This document shows, one piece after another, positions 11,784 through 51,754 of a stretch of DNA of 56,740 nucleotides. The notes beneath the pieces were generated by a model, which was not told where the DNA came from, searched no databases, and worked only from the letters and a program-made list of their open reading frames with translations. Both the position numbers and the translations under genes were made by a program. The first letter of the stretch is position 1. Each line of letters starts with the position of its first letter. This DNA is from Gaiellales bacterium (lineage in GTDB: Bacteria; Actinomycetota; Thermoleophilia; RBG-16-64-13): assembly GCA_012719395.1 (NCBI GenBank), contig JAAYAL010000039.1, positions 1-56,740 of the forward strand, written 5' to 3'.

Positions 11784-12121
11784 CCGTTGCTCCTTCCCTT
11801 CGGCTACGCATCACCATTGTATCTACTGGCTGACCTGAGGTCGGTGTGGGTGTGGGTGTGGGGGACAGGGTCGAGGATCTTCACCTTGTGCGGGAGTGGG
11901 GCCTCCGCGGTGGTTCGGCGTGGCCGTCACGACGGCGTGCCGGGGCGGATTCCGGTCAGGGATTGGCGCCGTTCGCCGGTGCAGGAGACCATCGCCATGG
12001 GCCGCGGCCCATTTGCCGGCGTTTCCCCTTGCAGCGCCGTGCTGCGCTCGGTATTCTACTGCTTACATGCAGTTTACATATAGATGCCGAGGCCGTGACC
12101 TCAACGCGGTAGGAGCGGGCA
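11784..12121. other. Intergenic region with GT-rich repeat; divergent upstream region of SDR and PadR genes
   Basis: No convincing gene is seen in these 338 bases. A hexamer-like repeat GGTGTG occurs three to four times at 11843-11864 and ends in five G, giving three close G-tracts that could form a G-quadruplex on the plus strand. The right part holds the promoter of the PadR gene. Confidence 0.5.
12029..12079 (+). promoter_or_regulatory. Promoter and TTACAT repeat upstream of the PadR gene
   Basis: TTGCAG (12029-12034) and TATTCT (12052-12057) are 17 bases apart, a weak sigma70-like promoter. Just downstream, TTACAT occurs twice with starts 11 bases apart (12063 and 12074), one helical turn. 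This could be an operator for the PadR protein itself or for an OmpR-type regulator. Confidence 0.45.
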
Positions 12122-12598
12122 ATGGGTCACAACTGTGAAGGTAGCCGCACGGGACCGACGCTGAACGAGGATGCCGTTGGCACGTGCCCCCGTCTCCGGG
12201 GCGGAGCCGGGCGGGGCAGGCTGCGGCAGGGACTGCTGCAGACCGCCTTGTTGTCGCGTCTGGCGGAAGGGGAGGCGCATGGGTATTCGCTCATTGACTC
12301 GGCCGCTTCGCTGATCGGTAGGCAGGCCTGCGTGGATCCGGGCACTGTGTATCGGATACTGCGTGCCCTTGAAGCAGAGGGGTGCGTTACCTCCCATTGG
12401 GAGTCGCCCACCAGCGGCCCGGGGCGGCGGGTGTATGAGATCATGCCCGCCGGCCTTGACCTCCTGCGCACGTGGTGTGTGTTCCTGGAGAGGCGTGCCG
12501 AGGGCCTGCTGGCCGTGGCACGCTGGGGTCGTAGCGCGCTGGGGGAGCCGCCGTTTGCCGGTGCCGGTCAAGAGAGCGCGGTTTGTCCACCTGATTAG
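12122..12598 (+). CDS. PadR-family transcriptional regulator
   Basis: The 158-residue protein has a PadR winged-helix domain at about 35-115. The pattern LLQTALLSRLAEGEAHGYSL leads to DPGTVYRILRALEAEGCV, where the recognition helix lies, and then GPGRRVYEIMPAGLDLL, the wing and start of the dimer helix. Such proteins usually repress neighbouring genes in response to small ligands. The N-terminus carries a Cys/His-containing extension (MGHNCEG). The ATG has TAGGAG seven bases upstream. The next gene, 72 bases downstream on the same strand, is a NifX-like protein, so the pair may be co-regulated. Confidence 0.85.
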   Translation: MGHNCEGSRTGPTLNEDAVGTCPRLRGGAGRGRLRQGLLQTALLSRLAEGEAHGYSLIDSAASLIGRQACVDPGTVYRILRALEAEGCVTSHWESPTSGPGRRVYEIMPAGLDLLRTWCVFLERRAEGLLAVARWGRSALGEPPFAGAGQESAVCPPD

Positions 12599-12670
12599 GA
12601 AGCGTAATTCCGACCGGCCAACTTGACGCAGGATGCAATCCGCCTCACCCTGGGGCACAAAGGAGGAACC

Positions 12671-13096
12671 TTGGCTACGGAAACCACGAAGGTAGAAACG
12701 AAGCCTACTGCTGCCCGTGTACTCGCTATACCAAGTCTCAGCCAAGATGGCTTGGAGGCGCAGCGTTCGGGTCATTTCGGTCATGCGGACTACCACACTC
12801 TGGTGTACCTTGCCGGTGACGAGATGATCGGCGTGGATACCATGGAGAACCCACCTCATTCAGAGGGCGGCTGTCTCGAGCCCGTTCTCCGGCTGGTAGA
12901 GCGGGGTGTGACTGACATGGTGGTAGGCGGCATGGGACTGCGGCCCCTGAATGGGCTGTTGAGCGCCGGGGTGCGCGTCTATGTGATGCCGGAGCAGGGC
13001 ACGGTACGGGAGGGCCTCCAAGCCGTGCTCGATGGGACGGCTCCCATGATGTCTCCCGCCCACGCGTGTGGCGGCCATGGCGGTGGCTGCCAGTAG
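12671..13096 (+). CDS. NifX/NifB-like dinitrogenase iron-molybdenum cofactor biosynthesis domain protein
   Basis: The 141-residue protein has the single-domain fold of the NifX/NafY/MTH1175 group. Visible are AIPSLSQDGLEAQRSGHFGHA near the start, GGCLEPVLRLVERGVTDMVVGGMG in the middle and a GVRVYV strand. It ends in a Cys/His-rich tail (HACGGHGGGCQ) that may bind metal. I chose the TTG at 12671 because AGGAGG stands four bases upstream; the upstream ATG frame adds 16 residues with no ribosome binding site. No other nif gene is in the window, so nitrogen fixation is not implied. Many anaerobes carry such proteins as general Fe-S or metal-cluster carriers. Confidence 0.8.
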   Translation: MATETTKVETKPTAARVLAIPSLSQDGLEAQRSGHFGHADYHTLVYLAGDEMIGVDTMENPPHSEGGCLEPVLRLVERGVTDMVVGGMGLRPLNGLLSAGVRVYVMPEQGTVREGLQAVLDGTAPMMSPAHACGGHGGGCQ

Positions 13097-17323: not shown

Positions 17324-18316
17324 TCAGTCGTCCGTTGGTGCGATCGATCGGCTGGGTACTGTCACCAGAGATTCCTCTTCCAGCATCACCGGCGCCACTT
17401 GGCAGCCAACGCGCCTGGTCCTGAGCACGGAGACGGCGATGGAAGCCGCCAGCGCGGCCGCGATCACGCCCAGTGCTATCACCGTGGGCAGGTGATAGAA
17501 GTCCGCCAACAGCATCTTGATGCCCACGAAACCCAGAATGACCGCCAAGCCGTAGTGGAGATACGCGAAGCGGTTGATGCACCCGGCCAGGGCGAAGTAC
17601 AGGGCACGTAGGCCCAGGATGGCGCACACGTTCGAGGTGAAGGCGATGAAAGGATGCCGACTGATGGCCAGGACGGCCGGGACCGAGTCGACGGCGAAGA
17701 CCAAGTCGGCAGACTCGATGGCCAGCACGGCCAGCATGAGCGGTGTGAAGAGGAGCCGGCGGTTCTTGCGGAACCAGAAGGCATGGCCCTTGTAGCCGAA
17801 GTCGAAGGAAAGGTGCCGTTCGGCGAACTTGACCAGAGGGTTGGTGTCTGGGGCAACGCTGGCGCTCTCTGTTCGCCACATGCGCACCGCGGTGTAGATG
17901 AGCAGGGCTCCGAAGACGTACATGGTCCAGGAGAAGCGCTCCAGCAGAGCCAGCCCGCCCAGGATGAACAGTAGGCGGAAGACGATGGCGCCGAAGATGC
18001 CCCAGAAGAGCACCTTGTGCTGATGGGCGGGGTGGATGCCCAAGGCGGTGAACACGAGCAAGAAGACGAAGATGTTGTCAACGCTGAGCGACTTCTCCAC
18101 CAGGTAGGCGGCGATGAACTCCTTGGCCTCTGCGGCCCCCAACCACATCCAGATCACACCGGCGAACGCGAAGGAGAGCGCGATCCAGAAGCCGCTCCAG
18201 CCCAGCGCCTCGCGTACGGAAAACTCCTTCTCACCACGGTTAATGACCACGAGATCGAGCACCAGCAGCACTGCTACCGCAATCCCGAACGCCACCCATG
18301 GCCAATAGCCGCTCAC
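17324..18316 (-). CDS. TerC-family membrane protein, predicted manganese exporter
   Basis: The 330-residue protein has about nine hydrophobic segments. It carries the acidic family motifs EKSLSVDNIFVFLLVF in the first half and IESADLVFAVDSVPAVLA in the second, which supply metal-coordinating Asp and Glu residues. TerC/Alx/MeeF-type proteins are linked to manganese export. The start is GTG at 18316, with GGAGGT five bases upstream. The leader is a yybP-ykoY riboswitch with a terminator, which independently points to Mn2+. The gene is convergent with the UbiB-like gene and divergent from rlmKL. Confidence 0.92.
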   Translation of the reverse strand: MSGYWPWVAFGIAVAVLLVLDLVVINRGEKEFSVREALGWSGFWIALSFAFAGVIWMWLGAAEAKEFIAAYLVEKSLSVDNIFVFLLVFTALGIHPAHQHKVLFWGIFGAIVFRLLFILGGLALLERFSWTMYVFGALLIYTAVRMWRTESASVAPDTNPLVKFAERHLSFDFGYKGHAFWFRKNRRLLFTPLMLAVLAIESADLVFAVDSVPAVLAISRHPFIAFTSNVCAILGLRALYFALAGCINRFAYLHYGLAVILGFVGIKMLLADFYHLPTVIALGVIAAALAASIAVSVLRTRRVGCQVAPVMLEEESLVTVPSRSIAPTDD

Positions 18317-20827: not shown

Positions 20828-21137
20828 GGCAGGCACGCACCCGCCCGCAGTCCCGGCTTGGCCCGCCATCCACGGCGCCACCTCTTCATCGGGTTGTCGG
20901 TTCACATCCACTGCTGAGCCCGAGGGGCCGAGGCAGGAGTCAGGCGAATGCCACGAACTGCAGCGAGTCCAGCTCCAGCAGCCGGCGTGGCTGTCCGCGG
21001 AGCGGTTCTTGAGCACGGGCACTTGGAGCTCGGCGAGAGTATCCTCAAGGAGGCCGAGACCATAGGTGCTTCCCTCCTCAGCGGATTGATTGTACTGTAC
21101 CCCCAACGCTCACCGGACCGAGGGGAAGTATCTGGAG
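20828..21137. other. Intergenic stretch without supported gene
   Basis: I see no gene I can support in these 310 bases between rlmKL and the acyl-CoA synthetase. An open plus frame from 20948 and a minus frame starting near 21070 are protein-like, but match nothing I recognise and run into or against the neighbours. No clear terminator is visible. Confidence 0.4.
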
Positions 21138-23375
21138 ATGACTGCTACCGGCCAGGGCGGGTCAAGTGGCGATCGCTTCGCCGGGGTCGGGGCGGCGTTG
21201 GCGGCCGGCCGCGCGGCGCTCAGCGAGGTGGAGGCCAAACAGTTTCTCGCTTCACAGGGGATCGCGGTCCCAGAGGGAGCGCCGGCCACCTGCGCGGAGG
21301 AAGCCGTGGCGGCCGCAGGCGGGATCGGCTACCCGGTGGTGATGAAAGGCATCTCCACCACCATCCTGCACAAGACGGAGGCCGGCCTGGTGCGCCTGGG
21401 GATCCAGGACCAGGAGGGCGTGCGAGTCGCTTTCGCCGCACTGAGCCAGGCGGGAGGTGACGCGCTCAGCGGCGTGTTCGTGGAGCGCCAGCTCCCGCGC
21501 GAGCGCGAGTTCATGGCCGGCATGGTTCGGGACCCTCAGTTCGGCGCTGTGATCATGCTCGGCCTGGGCGGCATCCTGGCCGAGGTACTCGATGATGTGG
21601 CTTTCGCGGTAGCCCCGCTCTCCCGTGCGGATGCGCTGCGGACGATCGAGGCGCTGCAGGCGCGCGCAATCCTGGGCTCCTACCGCGGTCTGCCGGCCGT
21701 GGATCGGGGGGCCTTGGTGGAGTTGCTCTGCATCTTGGGGCGCATGGCGCTGGAGTACCCGGAGATCGCCGAGATGGATCTCAATCCGCTTCTGGTAGAC
21801 CAGAGGCGTCCCGTGGCTGCCGACTGCCTTATCCGTCTGCAGCCTCCCGCCGCAGCCGCGCCCGCGCGTCTGCCCGTCAACCTTGCAGCGCTGGATGCCC
21901 TCTACGCGCCGCGCAGCGTCGCCATAGTGGGAGCGTCCAATGACCCGTCGAAGTGGGGCGGGACTATCCTGACCAACCTGATCGCCGGCGGCTACCCGGG
22001 CCGGCTGTATCCGGTGGCGCGCGCCGCCGAGACGGTGATGGGCATGAAGGCCTACGGCACTGTCTCGGAATTGCCGGAGGCACCAGATGTGGCCGTGGTG
22101 GCCGTGCCCGGCTCCGCCGCCCTGCCCGTGGTGCAGGAGTGCGGTGTCAAGGGAGTGCGTGCCGTGGTGATGGTCACCGCCGGCTTCTCCGAGACGGGGG
22201 CCGAGGGCCGCCACCGGGAGCGGGAGTTGGCGGAGGCGGCAGCGCGCCACGGAATGGCTCTGATAGGTCCCAACTGCATGGGCGTGGTGTCGTCGGCCGC
22301 CCGCTTTTTCGGTGTGGGTGCGGTGCCTCTGCATCCCAAGCCGGGGCCGGCGGCATTCGTCTCCCAATCCGGCAACATCGGTGCGCAGCTGATGGTGAGC
22401 GCCGAACAGAGGGGTGGCGGCATAGGCAGCTTCGTGGGCGTTGGCAACGAGGCTCTCTACCAGACGGCGGATCTGCTGGACTACCTCAAGGACGATCCAC
22501 GCGTGGGGGTGGTGGCCGCCTACGTGGAAGGTTACGAGGACGGTCGCCGTCTCCTGGAGAGCTCACGGGCGCTGGCGGCCAAGAAGCCGCTGGTGGTGTT
22601 GCGTGCCGCCGTCAGCGACTACGGGCGGCGGGCCGCCGCCTCTCACACCGGGGCGTTGGCAGGCGCACAGAAGGTGTTTGAGGGTGCGGCCCGACAGGCA
22701 GGCATGCTGCTCACCTTCGATCCGGACGAGTTCCTCGACACTGCGCTGGCCTTCTCCTATCTCCCCCTTCCTCGGGGCGATCGTGTGGGCATTGTGACCA
22801 TGGGAGGCGGATGGGGAGTGTTGAGCGCGGACGAGGTGGCACGTACCGGGCTGAGCCTGGCCGAGTTTGACCCCGGACTCCTGTCTCGCCTGGATGGCCT
22901 GCTGCCCCCCTACTGGAGTAGGGGTAATCCGGTGGATCTGGTGGCCACGCTGGTGGAGGGGGCTGCCGAGCGGGTGGTGGAGGAGATCATCGCTTCCGAC
23001 TCGGTGGACCTCCTCCTCGTGTCCGGCGTGGTGAGCGTCTTTGGGCTGGCCGAAGCCATTCTCGTCCAGGCGGAGCGGCTGAACGCGGAGGGAGCCATTG
23101 AGCTCAACGAGGGGCAATTCGCCGATCCTGGCTTCTTCGCGCGCCGGCGGGAGCAGTTCATCCGTCACCTGATCTCCCTCATGGAGCGCTACGAGAAGCC
23201 CATCCTCAGCGTTGCCGCCGTTCCCCTCGCCCAAGGCGTGTTCCCAGACTGGGGCCGATACGGTGTGGTGGTGATTTCTTCGCCTCTGAGGGCCGTGCGG
23301 GTGGCGGCAAACATGGTGGAGTATGCAGATCGCTTCAGGGTCGATCAGGGGCAGTGTGGGCCGTGCCGCGAGTGA
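21138..23375 (+). CDS. Acyl/acetyl-CoA synthetase (ADP-forming), fused beta-alpha order
   Basis: The 745-residue protein is a NDP-forming acyl-CoA synthetase that interconverts acyl-CoA plus ADP and phosphate with acid, CoA and ATP. The ATP-grasp (beta) domain comes first (about 15-245), with GYPVVMKGISTTILHKTEAG and AEMDLNPLLV. A CoA-binding Rossmann domain follows (about 253-375: SVAIVGASNDPSKWGG; IGPNCMGVVS). The succinyl-CoA-ligase-like part comes last, with the phosphohistidine motif AAASHTGALAG. Many fused members have the opposite alpha-beta order. ATG 21138 is favoured because homology starts soon after; the upstream TTG has no ribosome binding site. Its end overlaps the histidine kinase start by 22 bases, so the genes are co-transcribed. 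Confidence 0.88.
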   Translation: MTATGQGGSSGDRFAGVGAALAAGRAALSEVEAKQFLASQGIAVPEGAPATCAEEAVAAAGGIGYPVVMKGISTTILHKTEAGLVRLGIQDQEGVRVAFAALSQAGGDALSGVFVERQLPREREFMAGMVRDPQFGAVIMLGLGGILAEVLDDVAFAVAPLSRADALRTIEALQARAILGSYRGLPAVDRGALVELLCILGRMALEYPEIAEMDLNPLLVDQRRPVAADCLIRLQPPAAAAPARLPVNLAALDALYAPRSVAIVGASNDPSKWGGTILTNLIAGGYPGRLYPVARAAETVMGMKAYGTVSELPEAPDVAVVAVPGSAALPVVQECGVKGVRAVVMVTAGFSETGAEGRHRERELAEAAARHGMALIGPNCMGVVSSAARFFGVGAVPLHPKPGPAAFVSQSGNIGAQLMVSAEQRGGGIGSFVGVGNEALYQTADLLDYLKDDPRVGVVAAYVEGYEDGRRLLESSRALAAKKPLVVLRAAVSDYGRRAAASHTGALAGAQKVFEGAARQAGMLLTFDPDEFLDTALAFSYLPLPRGDRVGIVTMGGGWGVLSADEVARTGLSLAEFDPGLLSRLDGLLPPYWSRGNPVDLVATLVEGAAERVVEEIIASDSVDLLLVSGVVSVFGLAEAILVQAERLNAEGAIELNEGQFADPGFFARRREQFIRHLISLMERYEKPILSVAAVPLAQGVFPDWGRYGVVVISSPLRAVRVAANMVEYADRFRVDQGQCGPCRE

Positions 23376-24967
23376 AGACCCGTCTCTCGGGGGCCGCAGA
23401 CAAGCCGCTGTGGGTGCAATTGGCGCTCGGCTTGGTGGTGGTAGCTGCCTGCACGCTGGCCTGCCTCCCGCTTTCCACCCTCTTTCCGCTGGCCGAGCTG
23501 GTCATGGTATACATCCTGGGAGTGATGCTGGCTTCGCTGCAGTTCAGCCGCATGGCGTCGGCGGTCACCGCCGTGATGTGCGCGGCGGCATTTGACTTCT
23601 TCTTCGTGCTGCCTCGCCTCAGCTTTGTACCCACCGACCTCAAGCATTTGGTGACGGTGGCGGGGTTGCTGACGTTGGGGCTTGTCATCAGCACGCTGAC
23701 GGCGCGACTGCTCCACCAGATCACGGTGGTGGCGGTTGAGCAGGAGAGGACGCGCGCGCTTCTGGCTCTGAGCCGTGAGCTGGCGCGGACCGAGTCCATT
23801 GCGGATCTGGCGGCGGAGGCGGCGGAGCACGTGGGGCGCTTCTTCTCTGCCGCCGCCGCTGTGTTCTTGGCGGAGGACGCGCAGCCTCTGCACGTGCTGG
23901 CTGCAGCGGGGGTGAGCCGAGGGAGGGCCGCTGAAGCGCAGCCGCAGCTCGACGCGGTGAACCAGGACGTGTCGTGGCGTGAGCTGGCCACCAGGGCCTT
24001 TGCGACCAGGCAGGACGAGGACATTGCGGTCGTGGGCGCTCCGGGGTCGGCCGCTGTACCGCTGACCGGGTCGCGAGGCAACCTGGGGGCTCTGGTGGTT
24101 CGCTCAGATACAGCGTGGACCATCTCCGCCGAGCAGGCGTCTCAGCTGAAGGCCTTTGCGGCGCAGACCGGCTTGGCCATCGAGAGGGCGCAGTTGGAGG
24201 TGGAGGCGGAGCAGGCCAGGGTGGCCGTGGAAACGGAGCGCTTGAGGGGCGCGTTGCTCAGCTCCGTGTCCCATGATCTACGGACGCCTCTCGGTGCCAT
24301 CACCGGCGCCACAAGCGCGTTGTTGGATGACGAGCAGCTGCTTCGCTCCGAGCCCGGCCGTGATCTGTTGACCACCGTCTACGAGGAGGCCGTGAGACTC
24401 AACCGACTCGTGGGGAGCCTTCTGTACATGACGCGGTTGGAGGCGGGGGCGGTGGCCGCCAACAAGGAGTGGCAGCCCTTGGAAGAGGTCATTGGGGCGG
24501 CGTTGACGCGTCGAGCCTCTGAGCTTGCAGGGCACGAGGTGACGGTCAAGATGGACTACGCGCTACCCTTGATGGAGATTGACTCCGTGCTCATCGAGCA
24601 GGCGCTGGGCAACATACTGGACAATGCCGCCCGACACACGCCGACCGGCACGGTGATCGAGGTGGAAGCGTGGCCCCTGGGGAGAGGCGTGGAGATTCGG
24701 GTGGCCGACCGTGGCCCCGGCCTGGAGCCCGGGGAGGAGTCCCTGGTCTTCGACAAGTTCTACCGGGGTGCCGCGGGCCGCATGGGTGGGGCGGGGCTGG
24801 GATTGGCCGTGGTGAGGGGTATCATCGAGGTGCACGGCGGGCGGGTATGGGCCGAGCGGCGGGAGGGTGGAGGTTCCGTTTTCCACGTCTTTCTACCCAT
24901 TGAGGCCAATCCCCCTGATCTCGCTCTGTCCGCGGCCCGGGAAGATGACCTAGTGGAGGGAGAGTGA
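23354..24967 (+). CDS. KdpD-like sensor histidine kinase lacking the N-terminal KdpD/Usp domains
   Basis: The 537-residue protein starts with a DUF4118-type block of four membrane helices (about 20-120; the AAFDFFFVLPRLSF motif is typical of KdpD). A GAF-like domain follows (about 135-270), then HisKA with SSVSHDLRTPLGAI (phospho-acceptor His307) and an ATPase domain (NILDNAARHTP, ADRGPGL, GAGLGLAVVRG). Full KdpD proteins have about 350 further N-terminal residues with a Walker-type KdpD domain and a universal-stress domain; these are absent, so the signal sensed may differ. No kdpFABC genes are in the window. GTG at 23354 overlaps the previous gene. The response regulator follows with a one-base overlap. 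Confidence 0.9.
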   Translation: MWAVPRVKTRLSGAADKPLWVQLALGLVVVAACTLACLPLSTLFPLAELVMVYILGVMLASLQFSRMASAVTAVMCAAAFDFFFVLPRLSFVPTDLKHLVTVAGLLTLGLVISTLTARLLHQITVVAVEQERTRALLALSRELARTESIADLAAEAAEHVGRFFSAAAAVFLAEDAQPLHVLAAAGVSRGRAAEAQPQLDAVNQDVSWRELATRAFATRQDEDIAVVGAPGSAAVPLTGSRGNLGALVVRSDTAWTISAEQASQLKAFAAQTGLAIERAQLEVEAEQARVAVETERLRGALLSSVSHDLRTPLGAITGATSALLDDEQLLRSEPGRDLLTTVYEEAVRLNRLVGSLLYMTRLEAGAVAANKEWQPLEEVIGAALTRRASELAGHEVTVKMDYALPLMEIDSVLIEQALGNILDNAARHTPTGTVIEVEAWPLGRGVEIRVADRGPGLEPGEESLVFDKFYRGAAGRMGGAGLGLAVVRGIIEVHGGRVWAERREGGGSVFHVFLPIEANPPDLALSAAREDDLVEGE

Positions 24968-25662
24968 TGAGCGGCGGCGAAGCCTCGGTGTTGGTGGTGG
25001 AGGACGAGCCTCAGATGCTGCGCTTTCTCCGCACCACTCTCGTCAGCCAAGGCTTTCAGGTGCTGGAAGCCATGACCGGCAAGGATGCGATCGAGGCGGT
25101 GGCCTTTCGCAATCCAGAGGTCATACTACTGGATCTCATGCTGCCGGACATGGACGGGTTGGATGTTATCCGCACCGTGCGTGAGTGGTCTCACACGCCC
25201 ATAGTGGTCATCTCGGCTCGAGGGCGGGAGGACGACAAGATCTTGGCCCTGGATCTGGGAGCGGATGACTATCTCACCAAACCCTTCGGCACGGGCGAGC
25301 TCTTTGCCCGTATCCGAGTCTCGCTCCGCCATGCCGTCAAGGCTGCGAGTGATGAGCAGGCGGTCTTTGTGGCGGGGGATCTCACGGTGGACATGGCCAA
25401 GCGGCAGGTAACCGTGGGGGGGGAAGGAATCCACCTTACCAAACGGGAGTACCGGCTGCTCATCACGCTCATCAAGCACGCGGATCGGGTGGTCACGCAT
25501 CGTCAACTGCTGCAGGAGGTCTGGGGACCGGGCTATGAGACGGAGCTCCCCTACCTGCGGGTCTACGTGGGTCAACTACGGCGCAAGCTGGAGCCGGATC
25601 CGGCGCGGCCGCGTCTGCTGCTCACCGAGCCGGGGGTGGGCTACCGCTTGAAGGCCGAATGA
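24967..25662 (+). CDS. KdpE/OmpR-family response regulator
   Basis: The 231-residue protein has a receiver domain with phospho-acceptor Asp56 (ILLDLMLPDMDG), the acidic pair ED12-13 and Lys in YLTKPFG. A winged-helix DNA-binding domain follows (LTKREYRLLITLIKHADRV; LRVYVGQLRRKLEPD). ATG 24967 is chosen over the GTG three bases earlier because a GGAGGG lies about seven bases upstream and the ATG overlaps the kinase TGA. OmpR-type regulators bind direct repeats spaced 11 bases apart; four such repeats lie 22 bases beyond the stop codon. Confidence 0.93.
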   Translation: MSGGEASVLVVEDEPQMLRFLRTTLVSQGFQVLEAMTGKDAIEAVAFRNPEVILLDLMLPDMDGLDVIRTVREWSHTPIVVISARGREDDKILALDLGADDYLTKPFGTGELFARIRVSLRHAVKAASDEQAVFVAGDLTVDMAKRQVTVGGEGIHLTKREYRLLITLIKHADRVVTHRQLLQEVWGPGYETELPYLRVYVGQLRRKLEPDPARPRLLLTEPGVGYRLKAE

Positions 25663-25683
25663 AGATTAAGACGGCGCCAGGAC

Positions 25684-25727
25684 CTTACCCATTGCTTACC
25701 TGGCGCTTAGGGGACTCTTAGGGCGCC
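25684..25727 (+). promoter_or_regulatory. Four 11-bp-phased CTTA repeats, probable response-regulator operator
   Basis: CTTA occurs at 25684, 25695, 25706 and 25717, exactly 11 bases apart: CTTACCC, CTTACCT, CTTAGGG, CTTAGGG. Direct repeats with this period are the known binding pattern of PhoB/OmpR-type winged-helix regulators. The first two also lie between arms of an 8-bp inverted repeat (GCGCCAGG at 25674, CCTGGCGC at 25699). The array is between an OmpR-type regulator gene and the small membrane-protein gene at 25809, so autoregulated or direct control of that gene is the simplest reading. Confidence 0.6.
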
Positions 25728-25808
25728 TGCCAAACCCTTTGGGCATTTTTTAGGCATCTCTCACTAAGCTATGGGCAGGTAAGGTTCCATGCGAGGGGAG
25801 GTCACTTC

Positions 25809-26048
25809 ATGAAGATGAGTAGGGTGGGGGCCGCCATCTTCGCAATCGCCGCGGTTGTGTTGCTGGTGCTGTCGGTCATTGAGCGCGACGCGGGCCTCTT
25901 GTGGATGCCGGTGCTTCACATTGTGGGATGGTTGTTGCTGTTGGTGGCGACGGCGCTGGCCACCTACAATCCGGTGGCGGCTGAAGCGGCGAGGTCGTTC
26001 GCTCAGGGGGAGGTTGCCAAGGAGGCCGAGGCCAAAAGGGTGGCTTAG
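25809..26048 (+). CDS. Small two-helix membrane protein
   Basis: The 79-residue protein has two hydrophobic helices (VGAAIFAIAAVVLLVLSVI and MPVLHIVGWLLLLVATALA) and a charged C-terminal tail rich in Ala, Glu and Lys. No family is recognised. A strong ribosome binding site (GGGGAGGT, eight bases from ATG) supports it. It is the first gene after the 11-bp repeat array and is probably the direct target of the adjacent two-component system. Confidence 0.75.
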   Translation: MKMSRVGAAIFAIAAVVLLVLSVIERDAGLLWMPVLHIVGWLLLLVATALATYNPVAAEAARSFAQGEVAKEAEAKRVA

Positions 26049-26143: not shown

Positions 26144-26935
26144 CTACTTGGTGGGATACCGTGGCGCGAAGCGCCGCAACTCCAGGCCGCCGGCGCTCAT
26201 CTCGATCAGCGCGATGAGGTCGAAGACCGGCAGCGAGTATGCCGTGACCAGATCGGCTCTGAAGCTCACCAGGTTGGGGCATTCCAGCAGCCATGCGCCT
26301 ATTCGTGGCTCGCGATCACGGAGCTCGGCGGCCGCCGATAGCATGCCCCAGCGTACGGCATCGGGGTCCAGGTTGGGGCCGCGGTTGATGACCGCGCGCA
26401 CGAACTCGCGGCAGTTCTCCATCCCCACCACGGCGGTTCGCTCCAGATCAGCGCCCACGGCGGTGAGGTGGTTGTCCGTGAGGTATGCGGTGTGCCCGGT
26501 GATTACCGCCACCTTGAGTGAAGCTGGGAGCAGGAGCTGCAGCAGCGGCAAGAGGGTGAGGGCGGAGCCGAGGAACGGGACGTGGAGCGCTGCCGCGATC
26601 TCCTTCTGGTAGAGGGAGAAGAGCCCGCAGTCGGTGGAAACGAAATGCACGCCGCGCTCCTCCAGCCTACGAGCCGCCTCCAGGACGGGCCTCAGGCGCG
26701 ATGGGTCGTAGTGTCGGAGATCATTGGCAGAGAAACCCGGGACGACCTCATAGGTCACCGGGAAGTCGAAGGTCTGGGCATGAGCGGGGTCGCCCGGGGG
26801 TCGGGGCGTGGTGGAATCGAAGACCAGGATGCCTACCACGAAGCCGTAGAACGGCCGGCCACCGGCGTACTCGGTGGCCGGCCCGGCGCCCGGGCCCTGG
26901 GGCACGGTCGCCCAGCCGTCATCCATGCCGGTCAT
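26144..26935 (-). CDS. Asp/Glu/hydantoin racemase-family protein
   Basis: The 263-residue protein resembles the aspartate/glutamate/hydantoin racemase superfamily, whose cofactor-free mechanism uses two cysteines. Candidate catalytic cysteines are in VHFVSTDCGLFSLYQ (first half) and AWLLECPNLVSF (second half), with the characteristic VAVITGHTAYL strand between them. The ATG at 26935 has GGGAG seven bases upstream; the longer frame to 27016 lacks this. It lies directly downstream of a dihydropyrimidinase-like gene on the same strand, so a hydantoin or amino-acid substrate is plausible. Specificity cannot be read from the sequence. Confidence 0.75.
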   Translation of the reverse strand: MTGMDDGWATVPQGPGAGPATEYAGGRPFYGFVVGILVFDSTTPRPPGDPAHAQTFDFPVTYEVVPGFSANDLRHYDPSRLRPVLEAARRLEERGVHFVSTDCGLFSLYQKEIAAALHVPFLGSALTLLPLLQLLLPASLKVAVITGHTAYLTDNHLTAVGADLERTAVVGMENCREFVRAVINRGPNLDPDAVRWGMLSAAAELRDREPRIGAWLLECPNLVSFRADLVTAYSLPVFDLIALIEMSAGGLELRRFAPRYPTK

Positions 26936-27070
26936 GTGGCCACTCCCATGAGGCTCGTCTGGGGCGTGGCGTGCGACGGCTCGCAGGCCGCGCGGAGAGC
27001 GGACACCGGTGTCCACCGGTGTCCGCCGCCTGCCGTGCTTCTGATCAGGGACAAGGTGGGCGTCTCCCCC

Positions 27071-50629: not shown

Positions 50630-51754
50630 ATGGGTAGCCCGGAAGCCGACGCCGCGTCCGTTTCGTCCGCGGCTGTGCCAGCTCTGACCGCGGAGCCGGG
50701 CATGGAGGTGGCACCTTACACGCGCCTCTCTCCGGCCGAGCAGAGCAAGGTCCAGGAGATCCGAGAGGCGATTGACCTGAATGACCCTCAAGCGGTGCTG
50801 CAGTTCGGGTTGCCGGCACAGAACCGTATCGCCGCCTTCGCCGACACGCTGCTGGCCGATGTGCGCGCCAAGGACACAGGCTACGTGGGTGAAGCCCTCA
50901 ACGGCCTGCTGCAGCGGGTGAAGGATGTGGATGTGGACGCCCTGTCGGCGTCGGCGGAAGGGTCACGTATCCCGTTGATCGGGCGGTTTCTGGACTCCTT
51001 CGGCCGTTTCACGCAGCGGTATCGGAAGCTGTCGGTGGAGATCGAACAGATCCTGGACGCGCTGGAGCGCTCCCGCATGAACCTGCTGCGCGACGTCACC
51101 GTGCTGCAGAAGATGTACGAGCTGAACCTGGAGTACCTCAAGCAGCTGGATCTGTTCATCGCTGCCGGCGAGAAGGAGCTGGAGGAGGCGCAGACCACGG
51201 TGCTCCCCGTCCTGGAGGCAGAGGCGGCCGTGACCCGCGACCCGCTGCACGCGCAGAAGGTGGCGGATCTGCGCCAGACCCTCAACCGCTTCGAGAAACG
51301 CCTGCACGACCTCAAGCTCAGCCGTATGGTCTCCATCCAGACCGCCCCCCAGATCCGGCTCATCCAGAACAACAACCAAGCGCTGGTTGAGAAGATACAG
51401 ACCTCCATCACCACCACTGTCCCACTGTGGAAGAACCAGATCATCATCGCCCTCACCCTCTACCGGCAGCGCAGGTCCCTGGAGCTGCAGCAGGAGGTGA
51501 GCAAGACCACCAACGAGCTGCTGGCCAAGAACGCGGAACTGCTGCGGCAGAGCTCGGGCGCCGTGGCCAGGGAGACCGAGCGGGGTGTGGTGGATGTGGA
51601 GACACTGAAGAAAGTGAACGACGAGCTCCTGGCCACCATAGAGGAGACACTGCAGATCCAAGCAGAGGGCCGGGTGGCCCGGCAGGCAGCCGAGGTGGAG
51701 CTGCGCCGGCTGGAGGATGAGCTGAAGGGGAAGATGATCGAGGCGCGCCGCTGA
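50630..51754 (+). CDS. TelA/YaaN-family toxic-anion resistance protein
   Basis: The 374-residue, mostly helical protein has the TelA pattern: LNDPQAVLQFGLPAQNRIAA, ALNGLLQRVKDVD, FDSFGRFTQRYRKL-like and the long block QTAPQIRLIQNNNQALVEKI followed by TTVPLWKNQIIIAL. It ends in coiled coil. TelA proteins are linked to tellurite and cell-envelope-stress resistance; the mechanism is not known. ATG 50630 has GAGGAGG about seven bases upstream. A TerC-family gene lies elsewhere in the window (17324), but the two are not linked. Confidence 0.92.
   Translation: MGSPEADAASVSSAAVPALTAEPGMEVAPYTRLSPAEQSKVQEIREAIDLNDPQAVLQFGLPAQNRIAAFADTLLADVRAKDTGYVGEALNGLLQRVKDVDVDALSASAEGSRIPLIGRFLDSFGRFTQRYRKLSVEIEQILDALERSRMNLLRDVTVLQKMYELNLEYLKQLDLFIAAGEKELEEAQTTVLPVLEAEAAVTRDPLHAQKVADLRQTLNRFEKRLHDLKLSRMVSIQTAPQIRLIQNNNQALVEKIQTSITTTVPLWKNQIIIALTLYRQRRSLELQQEVSKTTNELLAKNAELLRQSSGAVARETERGVVDVETLKKVNDELLATIEETLQIQAEGRVARQAAEVELRRLEDELKGKMIEARR

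Follow-up and report, generated by a model that had tools for sequence, protein, structure and literature searches.

In Escherichia coli, the operator recognized by KdpE, the response regulator of the KdpDE-KdpFABC system that turns on a potassium pump, has been described as two half-sites placed 11 bp apart (TTTATA-N5-TTTACA), and the same work identifies R193, R200, and T215 as residues essential for DNA binding by KdpE (PMC3264566). The N-terminal domain of the E. coli sensor, KdpD, phosphorylates KdpB (PMC11018627). The KdpE site of Mycobacterium smegmatis is a 22 bp sequence, CCGTAAAGAAACCATCAAGGCC, which was reported not to resemble other KdpE motifs noticeably and for which a SigF promoter was proposed (PMC5401905); in our own reading, the site resolves into the half-sites GTAAAG-N5-ATCAAG, again 11 bp apart. 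A search of published KdpE work, with most subscription journals lying outside its reach, found no description of a four-half-site operator or of a second site. In a different two-component system, PhoQ/PhoP, small membrane proteins of the MgrB type feed back on the sensor kinase (PMC2789325).

Here we describe a locus in a 56,740-nucleotide stretch of DNA (the window) where a sensor gene and a regulator gene are followed by an array of half-sites and a gene for a 79-residue membrane protein. We refer to the genome of this stretch as G000, to a genome of the same family as G002, and to the other genomes compared by further G numbers. As in E. coli, the regulator belongs to the KdpE clade and its half-sites lie 11 bp apart; in contrast to E. 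coli, KdpA was not found, the sensor lacks the KdpD and Usp domains, the array contains six half-sites, and the putative output is a small membrane protein. The M. smegmatis site is likewise an 11-bp half-site pair, but its letters differ. With the MgrB system as it is described, the locus shares a small membrane protein placed under an adjacent two-component system, any feedback being purely hypothetical here. We consider it highly probable that the array is a KdpE-type operator and promoter serving an orphan KdpDE circuit, with the small membrane protein as output.

The Sensor, the Regulator, and the Small Membrane Protein

An acyl-CoA-synthetase-like gene on the forward strand (21090–23375; start codon uncertain), with Pfam CoA-binding, succinyl-CoA-ligase-like, and ATP-grasp domains, heads an apparent operon. 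The forward-strand sensor histidine kinase gene that follows (23354–24967) encodes the C-terminal half of KdpD only, with the Pfam domains DUF4118, GAF, HisKA, and HATPase. Its best NCBIfam match is KdpD (316 bits), confined to positions 402–886 of the 895 in the profile. Pfam detected neither PF02702, the N-terminal KdpD domain, nor Usp in the sensor, and a genome-wide profile search found PF02702 to be absent from the G000 assembly.

The third gene (24964–25662, forward strand) encodes a regulator for which KdpE is the best of 102 NCBIfam families at 255.9 bits, a score below the curated KdpE cut-off of 325, with the next family reaching 190.7. In an unrooted tree of 33 regulators, those of G000 and G002 fall within a 22-row KdpE clade (support 100/100) that contains E. 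coli KdpE and actinobacterial KdpE and leaves 11 other regulators outside. Alignment places R, R, and T in the G000 regulator at the equivalents of E. coli KdpE R193, R200, and T215. The frames of both sensor and regulator are intact, and their phospho-acceptor residues are present by inspection.

KdpA was not found in the G000 assembly, which is 98.21% complete and consists of 92 contigs. Given that the N-terminal domain of E. coli KdpD acts on KdpB, a joint loss of this domain and the pump would be coherent. Three genes for TrkH-type transporters are present in G000, and the 1500 bp upstream of each contain no convincing module. Genes of the TelA (toxic anion resistance) and TerC families lie on the same contig, apart from each other (50630–51754 and 17324–18316, respectively).

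The putative output gene, an open reading frame (ORF) at 25809–26048 on the forward strand, encodes a membrane protein of 79 residues with two probable helices. This protein matches no Pfam or NCBIfam family at its cut-off. Among 18 genomes of the order, a relative was found only in G002; a search of 299 class genomes otherwise gave weak matches (E of 0.001 or worse). The next gene (26144–27016) lies on the opposite strand, and the site upstream can only drive the gene of the 79-residue protein.

A Periodic Array of Half-Sites

Between the regulator gene and the small gene, the word CTTA starts at 25684, 25695, 25706, and 25717. The sequence-only reading had drawn attention to these four repeats at an exact 11-bp period, to a halfway switch from CTTACC to CTTAGG, to an overlapping 8-bp inverted repeat, and to the position of the array just before the 79-residue ORF, all of which are present as described. 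Two further half-sites lie in register beyond the four repeats, giving six half-sites, or three pairs, on the forward strand. Half-sites A (CTTACC, 25684–25689) and B (CTTACC, 25695–25700) form an extra upstream pair, defined from the sequence and from a self-similarity score that rewards likeness among half-sites with no letters preset. The core, defined by the same score and by a class matrix presented below, comprises half-site 1 (CTTAGG, 25706–25711, offset 0), half-site 2 (CTTAGG, 25717–25722, offset 11), half-site 3 (TTTGGG, 25738–25743, offset 32), and half-site 4 (TTTAGG, 25749–25754, offset 43).

The words are short and were reported for looking regular, as repeats arising by chance might be. 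Comparison with shuffled sequence makes this explanation exceedingly improbable. The window holds three copies of CTTA-N7-CTTA, all of them within the array, against a mean of 0.12 in 100 dinucleotide shuffles, none of which reached three. The genome-wide scan that had been suggested as a check confines the triple pattern CTTA-N7-CTTA-N7-CTTA to the array (two overlapping matches, with none for a reversed-pattern control) and returns five matches to the simple pair, compared with seven for its control pattern. Two of these five lie outside the array, on contigs C51 and C83, and no module surrounds either. The related pattern YTTWGG-N5-YTTWGG is found in G000 at 25706 only. For offsets 0/11/22/33, the self-similarity score reaches its window maximum at 25684 (62.7); for offsets 0/11/32/43, its maximum on the forward strand of the window falls at 25706 (60.9), the next unrelated places scoring 42–43. 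When the intergenic region was shuffled 5000 times by mononucleotide, neither value was reached. When the offset of the second pair was varied from 18 to 59, this score favored 32 at the G000 core; in another scoring, 22 came narrowly above 32 (56.7 versus 56.5), an effect of the overlap between the four upstream repeats and the core.

Past the array, a −10-like hexamer, TAAGCT (25765–25770, forward strand), begins 17 bp beyond 25748, where half-site 4 starts in the register of the class, and a Shine-Dalgarno-like sequence, GAGGGGAGG, was read at 25793–25801 on the same strand. A scan for σ70 promoters returned nothing at threshold.

The 8-bp inverted repeat, GCGCCAGG/CCTGGCGC (25674–25681/25699–25706, without strand), surrounds half-sites A and B and is probably incidental. 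Three perfect 8-bp inverted repeats in all could be taken to mean that the repeats belong to an RNA element behind kdpE, an attenuator or a terminator, and an RNA hairpin was rejected on its unremarkable fold (z of −0.60, with 59 of 200 shuffles matching or exceeding its stability). A terminator scan found no such site, and an 11-bp direct-repeat period is ill-suited to a hairpin, leaving an RNA element very unlikely.

Two overlapping perfect 8-bp inverted matches connect 25682–25702 with 25776–25785. The word GGTAAG at 25779–25784, the inverted form of CTTACC, lies just past the −10 hexamer near the expected transcription start and might serve as a half-site for a repressor or roadblock, or simply reflect chance.

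Geometry of kdp Promoters in the Class and Beyond

KdpA is present in 86 of the 299 genomes of the class. Its matches yielded 72 regions upstream of kdpA, after exclusion of incomplete genes and of rows in which the start was not intact, with one genome (G124) contributing two regions. In the 450 bp that precede kdpA, CTTnA recurs at a spacing of 11 bp in 29 of the 72 regions, of 32 bp in 23, and of 43 bp in 22; shuffled regions average 0.11 per spacing. A half-site seed at offsets 0/11/32/43 scores at least 12 of 16 in 41 of the 72 class regions and in one of 360 shuffles, and when no letters are preset, 32 is the best offset for the second pair in 45 of the 72 regions versus 3 of 72 shuffled ones. 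The pattern nAnnnT stands exactly 17 bp past the start of half-site 4 in 40 of the 41 strong class operators, a fixed distance implying that the proximal pair occupies the −35 position. Although the 41 operators were picked by the half-site seed, the −10 position and the CTTnA spacing spectrum are free of that choice.

Outside the class and within the same phylum, offset 32 is best in 16 of 27 regions, compared with 1 of 135 shuffled regions. Among named kdp regions, mostly from other phyla, it is best in 3 of 11 (Duffyella, Mycetohabitans, and Phenylobacterium, the last resting on poor half-sites), and it ranks second in Comamonas; a first scan of named loci with kdpA had excluded 15 of 21, the gene start lying outside the region or being unmatched. 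Most of the named alphaproteobacterial kdp regions lack this geometry, which is therefore not universal. Half-site letters vary by lineage (CTTGA, TTCAG, CGTCA, TTTAG), and the spacing is constant. By inspection, the kdp promoter of E. coli MG1655 (NC_000913.3, near 728900; L215) carries TTTGCG and TTTGCA at +32 and +43 of the known half-sites, followed by TACCCT where the −10 would lie, and could hold a second KdpE site proximal to the promoter; in this T-rich promoter, the scan without preset letters did not pick 32 as the best offset. The comparison suggests that KdpE promoters may share a geometry (0/11/32/43, then the −10) rather than a sequence. If so, this would explain why published KdpE sites look dissimilar and would make KdpE targets predictable in uncultured bacteria.

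Some class kdp operons (L033, L034, L041, and L042) contain an extra small membrane ORF of about 25–30 residues between the operator and kdpF. At another locus (L015, genome G054), two consecutive KdpE-like modules located downstream of the regulator, on the reverse strand of the locus, surround a tiny single-helix ORF; one has 20 rather than 21 bp between its pairs, and the other is canonical (37.5).

Preserved Spacing and Apparently Drifted Letters at the Proposed Operator

The class matrix was built from the 41 class operators with their −10 columns included and with G000 left out. Applied to both strands of the window, it ranks 25705 first with 10.0, a small lead over the next scores of 8.2 and 7.5, and puts TAAGCT (25765) in the −10 place. 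The hexamer is in register only with half-sites that start one base before CTTAGG, and is one off from TTTAGG. Scored with this matrix, whose half-site letters are those of the class (CTTnA), the G000 operator falls below the lowest training operator (10.0 versus 19.6); its geometry is preserved, and its letters appear to have drifted from the class. The G002 operator scores 25.5, inside the leave-one-out range, and has a perfect TATAAT in the −10 place.

Divergence of the G000 half-sites from the class consensus would also be expected if the array served another regulator of the OmpR/PhoB family, PhoB-like or similar, and lay behind kdpE incidentally: tandem half-sites at 11 bp are general in this family, and the regulator query has nine matches in G000. 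Against this, the 0/11/32/43 spacing with its −10 marks the kdp promoters of the class when these are compared with shuffled regions, and an array lies directly behind kdpE in G000, G002, G024, G034, and G044. We regard an operator for another family member as quite unlikely. The original assignment to an OmpR/PhoB-family site, made from the helical period and the place beside a sensor-regulator pair, stands in its broad form and is refined to a site for a KdpE-like regulator with six half-sites rather than four and kdp operator geometry in its core.

Relatives and Other Orphan KdpDE Pairs

The gene order of G000 recurs in G002, where a relative of the acyl-CoA-synthetase-like protein (58.8% identity) immediately precedes a truncated sensor (51%), followed by KdpE (76%) and the operator. 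The G002 contig C55 (L004, 2190–2509) ends soon past the start of a small ORF, in an insertion-like element, and contig C74 (L060, 1–133) begins with similar element sequence and continues with the remainder of a gene related to that of the 79-residue protein. From a comparison of these ends by eye, with a presumed junction, the small gene of G002 appears to be split in its 5' part by an insertion element. A second relative of the 79-residue protein is encoded elsewhere in G002, on contig C8. An AT-rich partial module upstream of this copy was discounted as an operator: it scores 57.8 with base weights derived from the window and 39.6 with local weights, at which 46 of 2000 shuffles do as well, and the class matrix gives it only 2.6 with no −10 at the right place.

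The absence of KdpA and of the KdpD N-terminal domain in G000, together with the apparently split gene in G002, would fit an operator that is the relic of a lost kdpFABC operon, the circuit being dead and the small gene incidental. A dead circuit is hard to reconcile with the intact frames and phospho-acceptor residues of sensor and regulator, with six half-sites instead of decay, or with the same small-protein family in the same place in two genera, and we judge it unlikely. The repeats themselves had been expected to be conserved in close relatives; in G002, one genome from the same family, arrangement and geometry are found, but with different letters in the half-sites.

Three genomes from another family of the class (G024, G034, and G044) have a strong operator directly behind KdpE (30.3, 36.2, and 36.7, respectively), and KdpA was not found in any of them. 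KdpD lacks PF02702 in G034 and G044, the two of these genomes that were scanned. The next ORF after the operator encodes a small membrane protein in all three. These orphan KdpDE pairs thus resemble G000 in the order KdpE, operator, small membrane protein and in the failure to find KdpA; unlike in G000, the small proteins are apparently single-helix, and their sequences are unrelated to that of the 79-residue protein. Among 11 genomes lacking kdpA, a score of at least 20 occurs within 500 bp downstream of the best KdpE match in four (G002, G024, G034, and G044), G023 has a site upstream only (22.0), and the G000 score is 10.0. In G006, G060, G011, G049, and G019, no site lies in the 500 bp downstream of the KdpE match or in the 1500 bp upstream of it. 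With a strong downstream site in 4 of the 11 and none at all in 5, an orphan KdpE that has its own operator is a recurrent arrangement, though not a general one. The self-contained sensor-regulator-small membrane protein circuit proposed by the sequence-only reading is in part supported, its arrangement recurring in G002 and also in the three genomes of the other family, where the small proteins are unrelated.

A Proposed Circuit

The array, its geometry, the identity of KdpE, the gene order, and the absence of KdpA and PF02702 from the assembly all come directly from computation. From them we infer binding by KdpE, activation as the sign of its action, turgor or K+ as the signal, and a role for the small protein. 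In the orphan KdpDE circuit that we favor, phosphorylated KdpE from the adjacent gene would bind as tandem dimers, one dimer for every two half-sites 11 bp apart. Two dimers, on 25706/25717 and 25738/25749, would form the core, and the proximal one, at the −35 position, would set RNA polymerase on TAAGCT at 25765 for a start near 25777. The third dimer site (25684/25695), added upstream in G000, may raise affinity or shift the threshold of the response. The predicted transcript would encode the 79-residue protein alone, from a good ribosome site. A KdpD without its N-terminal domains and the failure to find KdpA suggest a kdp-type switch that was given, or has kept, a small-protein output. The 79-residue protein perhaps feeds back on the sensor, by analogy with MgrB, or acts on another membrane protein. 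Such a circuit, with one candidate gene as its output, would represent a potassium-stress switch that has outlived its pump or become detached from it.

A broader interpretation is offered tentatively, and we hold it to be possible rather than probable: KdpDE may have been uncoupled from the potassium pump and, on more than one occasion, reused as an independent stress switch whose output, a small membrane protein, would in turn affect the membrane or the truncated sensor, and the geometry of four half-sites and a fixed −10 would be a conserved grammar of KdpE promoters whose letters drift and whose spacing stays.

A second site had been suggested at the 11-bp-spaced TTACAT pair at 12063. The pair exists (TTACAT-N5-TTACAT, 12063–12079). 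Because it stands alone, with no partners at 32 and 43, and lies 59 bp before a PadR-family gene, we do not accept it as a KdpE site; it is more plausibly the operator of that gene itself. The PadR-family regulator gene (12122–12598) is followed by a gene for a Nitro_FeMo-Co domain protein (12623–13096).
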